A stretch of DNA of 45,807 nucleotides from NCBI GenBank assembly GCA_026388415.1, contig JAPLJV010000065.1, positions 1 through 45,807 of the forward strand, read 5' to 3'. Below the pieces are notes generated by a model. It worked only from the letters and a program-made list of their open reading frames with translations. It was not told the DNA's origin and ran no database searches. Position numbers and translations under genes: made by a program. This DNA comes from Deltaproteobacteria bacterium. GTDB taxonomy: Bacteria > Desulfobacterota > Syntrophia > Syntrophales > JACQWR01. Within the stretch, counting starts at the first letter, position 1. The number at the start of each line of letters is the position of its first letter. Positions 14,785 through 44,742 of the stretch are shown here, piece after piece.

Positions 14785-14839
14785 ATTGGTCAATAGTTGA
14801 TGGCACAAGGTTGTGTTTGCGGGTAGACCAGTGACCAAT
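14785..14839 (+). repeat. Inverted repeat in the rplL-rpoB spacer
   Basis: ATTGGTCA at 14785-14792 is the exact reverse complement of TGACCAAT at 14832-14839. Together they could close a 39-base loop just before rpoB. In E. coli the same spacer holds an attenuator and an RNase III site that set the ratio of stalk protein to polymerase. A similar role is only inferred; there is no U-tract. Confidence 0.4.
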
Positions 14840-37295: not shown

Positions 37296-37664
37296 GTGGC
37301 AAGAATTGCGGGGGTGGATTTACCCAAGAATAAAAGGATGGAGATCGCGCTTACTTATATATATGGTATTGGGCGCAGCAAGTCGGTCTATATCCTTGAC
37401 AAAGCCGGTGTGAGCAACGATACCAAGACGGACAATCTTGCCGATTCGGAGATCACGGCCATAAGAAATGTTATTGACAAGGAACTCAAGGTGGAGGGCG
37501 ACCTGAGGCGGGAGATATCAATGTCCATCAAGCGTCTCATGGACATCGGCGCCTACCGGGGCTTGCGACACCGCAAGGGACTGCCTGTCCGGGGGCAAAG
37601 GACAAGCACTAATGCGCGGACCAGAAAAGGACCGCGGCGGGCCGTGGCGTCCAAGAAGAAGTAG
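37296..37664 (+). CDS. rpsM: 30S ribosomal protein S13 (uS13)
   Basis: The 122-residue protein begins [20 protein letters not shown] and has [17 protein letters not shown] with the basic tail that contacts P-site tRNA. The start is GTG at 37296 after AGGAGGTAGTAA. It opens the alpha operon. Confidence 0.97.
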
Positions 37665-37759: not shown

Positions 37760-38152
37760 ATGGCAAAGACAGTCAGGAAAACAGGCAAGAAGAAGGAAAA
37801 AAAGAATATTACCGAGGGTGTTGCGCATATCCAGTCCACATTCAATAATACCATTGTGACCATTACTGATCTCAGTGGCAATGTGATTGCCTGGTCATCC
37901 TCGGGAACGGAAGGATTTAAGGGGTCGCGGAAGAGCACTCCCTTTGCGGCCCAGATGGCGGCCGAGAGCGCCGTCAAGAAGGCTAAAGAACACGGATTAA
38001 GGAACGTGCAGGTGTTCGTGAAAGGTCCGGGGGCGGGAAGAGAGTCGGCGCTCAGGTCCCTGCAGTTGGCCGGTCTTAAAATCAGCCTCATCAGGGATGT
38101 TACTCCCGTTCCGCACAACGGCTGCCGTCCACCAAAAAGAAGAAGGGTGTAG
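37760..38152 (+). CDS. rpsK: 30S ribosomal protein S11 (uS11)
   Basis: The 130-residue protein has [18 protein letters not shown] and [15 protein letters not shown], then the C-terminal [18 protein letters not shown]. It forms part of the platform near the E site. GGAGG precedes the ATG. An unusual perfect hairpin lies just downstream. Confidence 0.97.
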
Positions 38153-38165
38153 CAAATAACAAACA

Positions 38166-38210
38166 CCGCTGATCAATTGTCAATAGTCGGAATTGACAAT
38201 TGATCAGCGG
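38166..38210. repeat. Perfect 19-bp inverted repeat between rpsK and rpsD
   Basis: The arm at 38166-38184 is the exact reverse complement of 38192-38210, with a 7-base loop. It lies in the 86-base rpsK-rpsD gap, with no T-run behind it, so it is not a standard terminator. It may stabilise the mRNA end, act as a regulatory site for S4, or be a small inserted repeat. AT-rich arms differ from the surrounding GC. Confidence 0.8.
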
Positions 38211-38238
38211 TAATAGATCACTGATCAGGGAGGCTTTT

Positions 38239-38868
38239 TTGGCAAGATATTTAGATTCCGCGTGCCGGTTATGCCGGAGAGAAGGACTGAAGTTATTTCT
38301 CAAAGGGGACAGGTGCTATAGTGAGAAGTGCGCCTTTGAGCGGCGGGGATATGCGCCGGGCGATCACGGTCAGATGCGCCGGAAGCAGCCGTCTGATTAC
38401 GGCATCCAGTTGCGTGAGAAGCAGAAGCTCAAGAGGATGTACGGGCTGCTGGAAAAGCAGTTCCACGGCAGCTTTGAAACGGCCGAGAAAAAAAAGGGCA
38501 TTACGGGCGCCAATCTTTTGATTGGTCTGGAGAGGCGTCTGGACAATATGGTTTTCCGCATGGGTTTTGCCAGTTCGAGAAATGAAGCGCGCCAGTTGGT
38601 CACGCATCGGCATTTCCTCGTGAATGGCAAGGCGGTGAATATACCTTCTTATCTGCTCAAGGCCGGGGACGAAATTACCCTGAAGGAAAAAAGCCGGAAA
38701 GTGGCCTGCATCCTGGAAGCCATGGGAACGGTGGCCAGGAGAGGCGTGCCGCAGTGGCTGGCGCTGAACAAAGAGGGTTTTCAAGCCAGTGTAAAGATGC
38801 TTCCTACCCGGGAAGAATTGACCATGCCGGTTCAGGAACAGTTGGTTGTTGAACTTTACTCGAAGTAA
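38239..38868 (+). CDS. rpsD: 30S ribosomal protein S4, zinc-binding type (uS4)
   Basis: The 209-residue protein begins at a TTG (38239), with GGGAGG 5 bases upstream, as [16 protein letters not shown]. The four Cys (CRLC and CYSEKC) mark the zinc-bearing form. It has the S4 RNA-binding domain with [20 protein letters not shown]. In E. coli S4 represses the alpha operon; the frame open from 38200 adds unrelated residues and is not used. Confidence 0.97.
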
Positions 38869-38907: not shown

Positions 38908-39870
38908 ATGCAAAAAAACTGGGATAGTCTCATCCGACCAAAGCGTATTGATATTGATGAAAGCACACATACCCGTTTTTATGGGGAGTTTAGCTGCCAG
39001 CCGTTAGAGCGGGGGTTCGGCATTACCTTGGGCAATGCCCTGCGGCGGGTCTTGCTGTCTTCCATCCAGGGGGCGGCAATAGTTTCCCTTCAGATTGACG
39101 GGGTGTTGCACGAATTTTCTACCGTGCCCGGAGTTAAGGAAGATGTGACGGACATCATCCTTAACTTGAAGGGAGTTCGGATGAAAATTCATCAGGACGG
39201 GCCGCAGGAGATAAGAATTGACGCCAAAAAAGCGGGCGTCGTCACGGCGGGCGATATCATAACGGATGGTACAGTGGAAATACTCAATCCCGACCATCAC
39301 ATTGCCACTCTTTCCGGAGAAGCGCCTTTTCGGGCTTTGATGGTTGCCAAGATGGGCAAGGGTTATATACCGGCCGGCAGTGGCAAGGATATTGATCAGC
39401 CTGAGGGCGTCATCAATATGGACGCCTTATTTTCGCCCGTAACAAAGGTCAATTATACGGTTACCTATGCGCGTGTTGGTCAGATCGCCGATTACGACAG
39501 GCTTATTCTGGAGGTCTGGACGGATGGCAGCGTGTTGCCGGAAGACGCAGTTGCTTATTCGGCCAAGATTTTGAAATATCAGCTTGATATATTGATCAAT
39601 TTTGATGAAGCTGATGAAGAGGAAGAGCAACGGGGTGCGGAGGAAGGCGGTACTATTAATGATCAACTGCTGCGTCAGGTTGACGAACTGGAGCTTTCCG
39701 TAAGATCGGCCAATTGTCTGAAAAATGCCGGAATTAATATGATCGGGGAGCTCGTGCAAAAATCGGAAGCAGAGATGCTGAAGACCAAAAATTTTGGCCG
39801 CAAGTCTCTCAGTGAGATCAAGGAAGTGTTGGGTGAGCTGGGACTTGGTTTCGGTATGAAGCTTGGATAA
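38908..39870 (+). CDS. rpoA: DNA-directed RNA polymerase subunit alpha
   Basis: The 320-residue subunit has the N-terminal assembly domain ([19 protein letters not shown]) and the C-terminal domain that binds UP elements and activators ([30 protein letters not shown]). The linker near 232-250 is rich in Asp and Glu. It dimerises to start core polymerase assembly. Confidence 0.98.
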
Positions 39871-39941: not shown

Positions 39942-40295
39942 ATGCTTTACGGGAAATCAGGCAGTAAACTGGGAAGAACGACGAGCCACAAAAAAGCCAT
40001 GTTACGCAACATGGCAACTTCTATTATAAAGTATGAAAAGATTAGAACCACTGATTCGAAGGCCAGAGAAATAAAGAGGGTGGCCGATAAATTAGTGACG
40101 TTAGGCAAGAGAGGCGATCTTCATGCCCGGAGACAAGCCGCGTCTTTTGTAAGAGACCGGGCGATGGTGGGTAAACTGTTTGATGAATTGTCGGCTCGTT
40201 ATCGCGACCGGGCCGGCGGTTATACGCGGGTCATCAAGGTGGGTTGCCGGATCGGCGATAATGCGCCCATGTCCATTGTAGAATTTATTCAATAA
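39942..40295 (+). CDS. rplQ: 50S ribosomal protein L17 (bL17)
   Basis: The 117-residue protein begins [20 protein letters not shown] and has the conserved [16 protein letters not shown] and [17 protein letters not shown]. The ATG at 39942, after GGAAAGGAAG, gives the normal start; a TTG at 39897 would add 15 non-conserved residues. It closes the ribosomal protein array. Confidence 0.96.
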
Positions 40296-44651: not shown

Positions 44652-44670
44652 GTAATTTATATGAGAATCC

Positions 44671-44706
44671 ACCCCTTTACCAAAGGGGGGTTAAGGGGGG
44701 ATTTTC
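44671..44706. repeat. G-rich dispersed-repeat-like element with small hairpin
   Basis: Just after lptD, CCCCTTT (44672-44678) pairs with AAAGGGG (44682-44688) around a 3-base loop, and a second GGGGGG-ATTTT block follows at 44695-44705. This spacing of AAAGGGGGG, TTAA and GGGGGGATTTT matches a short intergenic repeat pattern seen scattered in many bacterial genomes (from memory). Only one copy lies in this window. It has no T-run for either strand, so a terminator is unlikely. Confidence 0.45.
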
Positions 44707-44742
44707 ATGTTTCGTTGTGCCCGCGCCGGTCATGGGGGTTAA

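Follow-up and report, generated by a model that had tools for sequence, protein, structure and literature searches.

How did a flawless and highly stable hairpin come to lie in the alpha operon of a Syntrophales bacterium, and does it regulate the genes on either side of it? The window, which is the whole stretch of 45.8 kb that was analysed, features a plus-strand cluster rpsM-rpsK-rpsD-rpoA-rplQ, whose products S13, S11, S4, alpha and L17 were all found above the NCBIfam cut-offs. The hairpin is located in the 86-nt spacer between rpsK and rpsD, where it starts 12 nt past the rpsK stop codon and ends 27 nt upstream of the TTG start of rpsD, a start that is also present at the spacer ends of relatives. 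An earlier note on this DNA had described a perfect 19-bp stem at 38166-38210 that would be very stable in RNA, and both statements hold. The inverted-repeat search determined that the arms are 20 nt long and paired at 20/20 positions, one pair more than had been claimed, around a loop of 7 nt (Table 1). The RNA fold of 38152-38245 has a free energy of -36.1 kcal/mol (z -7.98), which was equalled by 0 of 200 shuffled sequences, and the stem alone is computed to account for about -31 kcal/mol in the mRNA.

Table 1. Features of the rpsK-rpsD spacer and of the surrounding operon (positions in the window)
Feature	Position	Strand	Basis	Remark
S13 (rpsM)	37296-37664	+	NCBIfam above cut-off	
S11 (rpsK)	37760-38152	+	NCBIfam above cut-off	stop codon TAG 38150-38152
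5' arm of the inverted repeat	38165-38184	+	inverted-repeat search	perfect, 20 bp
Loop AGTCGGA	38185-38191	+	inverted-repeat search, RNA fold	7 nt
3' arm of the inverted repeat	38192-38211	+		like ATTGATAATTGATCATCG, an SD-proximal spacer sequence of family f13 relatives, 16/18
GATCACTGATCAGGGAGG-type SD-proximal element	38217-38233	+		family f13 version TGATCANNGATCAGGGAGG
Shine-Dalgarno (SD) sequence GGGAGG of rpsD	38228-38233	+		16 nt past the stem
S4 (rpsD)	38239-38868	+	NCBIfam above cut-off	TTG start at 38239
RNA polymerase alpha (rpoA)	38908-39870	+	NCBIfam above cut-off	
L17 (rplQ)	39942-40292 (as scanned)	+	NCBIfam above cut-off	

The chance expectation for perfect arms of at least 20 nt with loops of 3-20 nt is about 6e-7 in a window of this base composition. 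Among the 9 close-armed inverted repeats listed in the window, the rpsK-rpsD repeat is the longest and the sole perfect one. A sample of 394 kb, made up of the window and 20 stretches of the same genome, contains 7 perfect hairpins with arms of at least 12 nt and loops of 3-20 nt; here too the rpsK-rpsD arms are the longest, and the next reach 15. With mismatches and G-T pairs allowed, 6 hairpins of the sample lie over the cut-off. One of them outdoes the rpsK-rpsD stem at 31 pairs, though with 6 G-T pairs and 2 mismatches, and another equals it at 20, with one G-T pair. The hairpin is therefore exceptional as a perfect stem, while strong intergenic hairpins are not unique in this genome. Other palindromes were noted in non-coding DNA. 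Two hairpins with perfect 15-bp stems, of the pattern GAAAT...TTCT(G)...ATTTC and free of T tracts, are present at L129 952-989 and L145 7037-7075 and possibly belong to one operator or repeat family. Additionally, TGTTTCACGTGAAACA at L132 7869-7898 lies inside a perfect 13-bp palindrome and is presumably a parS-like motif.

Comparison with relatives determined whether the stem has counterparts. The rpsD gene was found in 57 of 60 relatives, and 30 loci, the window's own included, were read. Further loci were taken from GTDB contigs as the best 80 of 436, mostly Syntrophaceae, Smithellaceae and Deltaproteobacteria records. All of the 124 rpsD loci (124/124) gave a rpsK-rpsD spacer, 92 of them distinct by spacer and gene start, with a median length of 49 nt and a range of 29-182 nt. 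The longest perfect arms with loops of 3-24 nt are 20 nt in the window, 12 in L030, 8 in L119 and at most 7 in the rest of these 92 spacers. The fold z-scores are -8.1 for the window, -5.0 for L012 and -4.7 for L030, all others lying above -3. The mean for the 91 spacers other than the window is -0.03, which means that stable structure is not a general property of this spacer and that there is no conserved structured leader. No homologous stem, and thus no compensatory change, was found among these 91 spacers. The stems of the window, L012 and L030 are unrelated to each other, and congeners are without them. The suggestion of a conserved regulatory element, which had been raised in the earlier note, is thus not supported: there is no counterpart in the 91 spacers, no sequence copy in the other genomes of the order that were searched and no Rfam S4 or alpha-operon leader. 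The same note had proposed that absence in close relatives, together with no effect on RNA coverage, would speak for a neutral insertion. The stem is indeed absent and the result leans that way, with the limit that the closest relative compared belongs to another genus of the same family. This genome (G001, locus L010) is the only other one of the family that was compared, and its 131-nt spacer has no such stem. In a tree of S11, S4 and S13 the window forms a long branch and lacks a close sister. The stem looks like a lineage-specific feature of a fast-evolving, non-coding spacer.

On balance, the stem is probably a lineage-specific inverted repeat that was born by replication template switching in this fast-changing spacer, and probably not a dedicated regulator. 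In the proposed replication event, the nascent strand would have changed template at a local stretch rich in TGATCA/AATTG, and the existing SD-proximal sequence, which is the present 3' arm, would have been copied backwards to give the 5' arm. One such copying event would close a perfect stem. The two arms were scored against the 91 spacers of relatives. The 3' arm reaches a best score of 28, which 0 of 400 dinucleotide shuffles attain, and the 5' arm a best score of 22, which is attained by 20 of 400; for the reversed 3' arm, 346 of 400 shuffles attain its best score. These counts suggest that the 3' arm is old and that the 5' arm is the newer sequence, probably a reverse-complement copy. The ATTGATAATTGATCATCG that the 3' arm resembles (16/18 positions) lies directly before the rpsD Shine-Dalgarno sequence in L092, L101 and L104. 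These three best-scoring spacers come from genomes closely related to one another, none of which is a sister of the window; they belong to a different family, and in the tree the window stands apart from those f13 genomes whose sequence is like its 3' arm. The closest relative compared is from another genus of the family, and so the ancestral state is drawn from distant genomes. When the 5' arm and the loop were left out, alignment to the spacers of 12 relatives was better in 3 cases, equal in 2 and worse in 7, which gives no support to a model of the spacer before the event. The test between the arms is blurred by TGATCA and AATT, which are self-complementary. Additionally, that all 20 pairs have stayed perfect would also be consistent with selection for the stem.

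The congeners L012 and L021 (genus g12) provide a second case at the same locus. Their spacers are 125 and 55 nt long and have an exact 20-nt start in common. L012 holds an exact 13-nt inverted copy, in reverse complement, of the CTAAAGTGAACTA of L021, and its direct copy of CTAAAGTGAACTA reads CTAAAGTGCACTA, with one base changed. The inverted score of L012 was reached by 0 of 1000 simple shuffles, part of the score being due to L012 itself being palindromic. These spacers would support, independently of the window, inverted copying in the rpsK-rpsD spacer. A strong hairpin has been gained or lost here within genus g12. That one template switch can create a perfect stem is an established mechanism according to Monttinen and Loytynoja (PMC8794818), and a review describes quasi-palindromes as enabling template switching in bacteria (PMC10710837). 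The rpsK-rpsD stem is like the quasipalindrome-associated template-switch mutations that create perfect hairpins (PMC8794818) in being a perfect reverse-complement repeat that adjoins its source. It is also like template-switch hairpins in being lineage-specific and single copy, with a congeneric case (L012/L021) at the same locus. It differs in that its ancestor is sampled only from another genus or farther, too distantly for the four switch points to be reconstructed.

The stem would fold in the mRNA between the rpsK stop codon and the rpsD Shine-Dalgarno sequence. Ribosome footprint sizes suggest that the terminating ribosome and the initiating 30S subunit could both bind with the stem folded. 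Both would fit beside it, and so the stem would be tolerated. The predicted probability that the Shine-Dalgarno sequence is unpaired is 0.02-0.11 when the stem is present, and leaving out the 5' arm and loop changes it to 0.04-0.16. Predicted pairing of the start codon together with the Shine-Dalgarno sequence is likewise about equal in the two states. These near-equal values indicate that the stem neither hides nor frees the rpsD ribosome site. A separate element was observed at this site. TGATCANNGATCAGGGAGG lies directly 5' of rpsD in 10 of the 155 genomes of the order, all from family f13, once in each and always at rpsD (L030, L092, L095, L097, L100, L101, L104, L108, L117 and L148). Its TGATC/GATCA arms are constant and its two N positions variable, and the window version reads AGATCACTGATCAGGGAGG. 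At the ribosome site of rpsD this element may form a small conserved hairpin or serve as an operator.

An alternative is that the stem is a functional element of RNA processing or stability: if it were cleaved by RNase III, or if it stopped 3'-5' exonucleases, it would determine how much rpsM-rpsK mRNA there is relative to rpsD-rpoA-rplQ mRNA. RNase III processing stems occur in rRNA and ribosomal protein operons, and the rpsK-rpsD stem resembles them in being long and double-stranded and in belonging to a highly expressed operon; it differs in being unconserved, and its cleavage would be putative. A stable perfect stem in an operon spacer fits such a role, as do the rpsD ribosome site, which is predicted not to be sequestered, and the stable hairpins, unrelated to this one, that L012 and L030 carry in their rpsK-rpsD spacers. 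The genome encodes RNase III (237.6 bits against a cut-off of 166.25), but the enzyme is near-universal and the presence of its gene says little. The lack of conservation across the 91 other distinct spacers also counts against this explanation, which is considered unlikely. On the template-switch reading, the stem would at most be a passive feature of the mRNA, as a putative 3'-5' decay brake on the rpsM-rpsK part of the message or a putative RNase III site. Rather more speculative is the idea that the rpsK-rpsD spacer of Syntrophales repeatedly gains template-switch hairpins and that some lineages keep a stem for mRNA processing or insulation, which uncouples the output of S4-alpha-L17 from that of S13-S11; this is conceivable but quite improbable.

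On the sense strand the hairpin is no terminator, as the earlier note had recognized: the stem is followed by AATAGATCACTG, with no T tract. In the minus-strand reading, GTTTGTTATTTGC comes after the stem, which raises the possibility of an intrinsic terminator for antisense transcription. The minus strand from 38211 to 38165, with the tail GTTTGTTATT, passes a simple terminator scan as a match to the consensus only, and it is the only one of 3 regional matches with 20 pairs, where shuffled sequences averaged 1.6 matches. However, all of the operon genes are on the plus strand and no minus-strand promoter is known there, and the T-rich tract is simply what the A-rich first part of the spacer gives on the opposite strand, A-rich spacers being common in relatives. 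Antisense termination is accordingly given very little probability.

The hairpin could also be a dispersed palindromic repeat or a miniature mobile element that was inserted in the spacer, and its inverted-repeat form and its absence from relatives agree with this. REP/ERIC-type intergenic palindromes form stable hairpins in operon spacers and could slow 3'-5' decay. The rpsK-rpsD stem is like them in being a stable hairpin in an operon spacer and differs from them in being single copy and in having no family. The genome of origin (G000) is a 2.79-Mb draft of 66 contigs that is 98.1% complete and 2.59% contaminated, and the hairpin is present in it once. The 89-nt spacer query recovered its own locus in direct and reverse-complement orientation and, besides, six short matches (14-22 nt, E of 0.4 or worse), and no second copy of the hairpin was found in this genome even at E up to 10. 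Many copies had been proposed as the sign of a dispersed repeat, and the genome has one. The 11-mer CAATTGTCAAT is present at five places in the genome, two of them inside the hairpin element. No copy of the hairpin sequence was found outside its own genome in the 155 genomes of the order (own included), nor in plasmids, phages or viral contigs, the viral scan being for an exact 39-mer. In 6 other genomes of the 155 the spacer is matched at E 0.01 or better, and in 5 of these 6 the match is limited to the SD-proximal 26-28 nt. The remaining match, in G066 (L151, E 0.003), overlaps a 200-aa reverse-strand coding frame, which on reading looks like superoxide dismutase, and was judged to be chance. 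The flanks, read by eye, show no target-site duplication.

A shared 9-mer, GTCAATAGT, had been taken as a hint of a dispersed element linking the hairpin to the rplL-rpoB spacer. The 9-mer does recur there, at 14789-14797, one base off the earlier position; the dispersed element that it was thought to indicate does not follow. The 9-mers of the hairpin element occur 22 times elsewhere in the window when overlapping words are counted separately, which merge into 16 places. First-order Markov simulations gave a mean of 11.3 and a range of 4-21 over 30 runs, so that the observed 22 is just above this range. The match to the rplL-rpoB spacer, being only one of these 22 occurrences, is unremarkable, and the total is a small excess of AATTG/TTGAC-type words and not a dispersed element. 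Insertion of a dispersed or mobile element is thus largely refuted and must be regarded as most improbable; the earlier suggestion of an inserted palindrome stands only in the broad sense. Repeated words were also found in the sampled non-coding DNA. Heptamer-type spacer repeats were tried and rejected: TTGACA/TTGTCAA words number 29 where 6.2 are expected, and these were read as ordinary -35 promoter boxes and not as a repeat family. Intergenic stretches rich in AAATCCCCC/GGGGGATTT were observed in the window at about 44660-44710 and at L133 1275-1352. Words of the CCCCCTTT type rank near the top for enrichment in the non-coding sample, and a loose pattern gives 15 sites in a 348-kb sample. 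Such stretches do have the look of a repeat that is dispersed in this genome.

An S4-binding leader within the operon, by which S4 would autoregulate rpsD-rpoA-rplQ, has position in its favor. A paper on ribosomal leaders (PMC7247131) lists, for Bacteroidia and Flavobacteria, S4 leaders that immediately precede rpsD-rpoA-rplQ, and the stem is like the S4 leaders upstream of rpsD or rpsM in that paper in lying in the alpha operon upstream of rpsD-rpoA-rplQ. It is unlike them in having no Rfam match, no conservation and no complex fold, and in leaving the ribosome site uncovered. Rfam at gathering scores matched nothing at the spacer and only tRNAs elsewhere in the window, and relaxing the E limit to 1 brought up nothing at the spacer but eukaryotic microRNA families, which scored far under their gathering thresholds, as is expected of a perfect stem. 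The Rfam S4 leader had 0 matches in the loci of seven relatives. A full-text literature search for this stem returned that ribosomal-leader paper as its sole match. Known S4 targets have a multi-helix or pseudoknot form. The rpsK-rpsD hairpin is a plain perfect stem without such a form, and an S4 leader here is hardly credible. A chimera or assembly artefact would be conceivable for a draft in 66 contigs of this completeness and contamination but is just as hard to credit, because the stem lies in mid-contig with the operon sequence unbroken on either side, and an inverted chimera normally covers much more than 20 bp.

As this case shows, a hairpin can be flawless, highly stable and part of a core operon without having to be a conserved regulator. 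Local inverted copying explains a single-copy, lineage-specific stem well, and a role in mRNA decay or processing, passive or active, is possible beside such an origin. If the rpsK-rpsD spacer truly gains and loses hairpins within genera, it would offer a natural series on how RNA stems originate in essential operons and on whether any of them are recruited.
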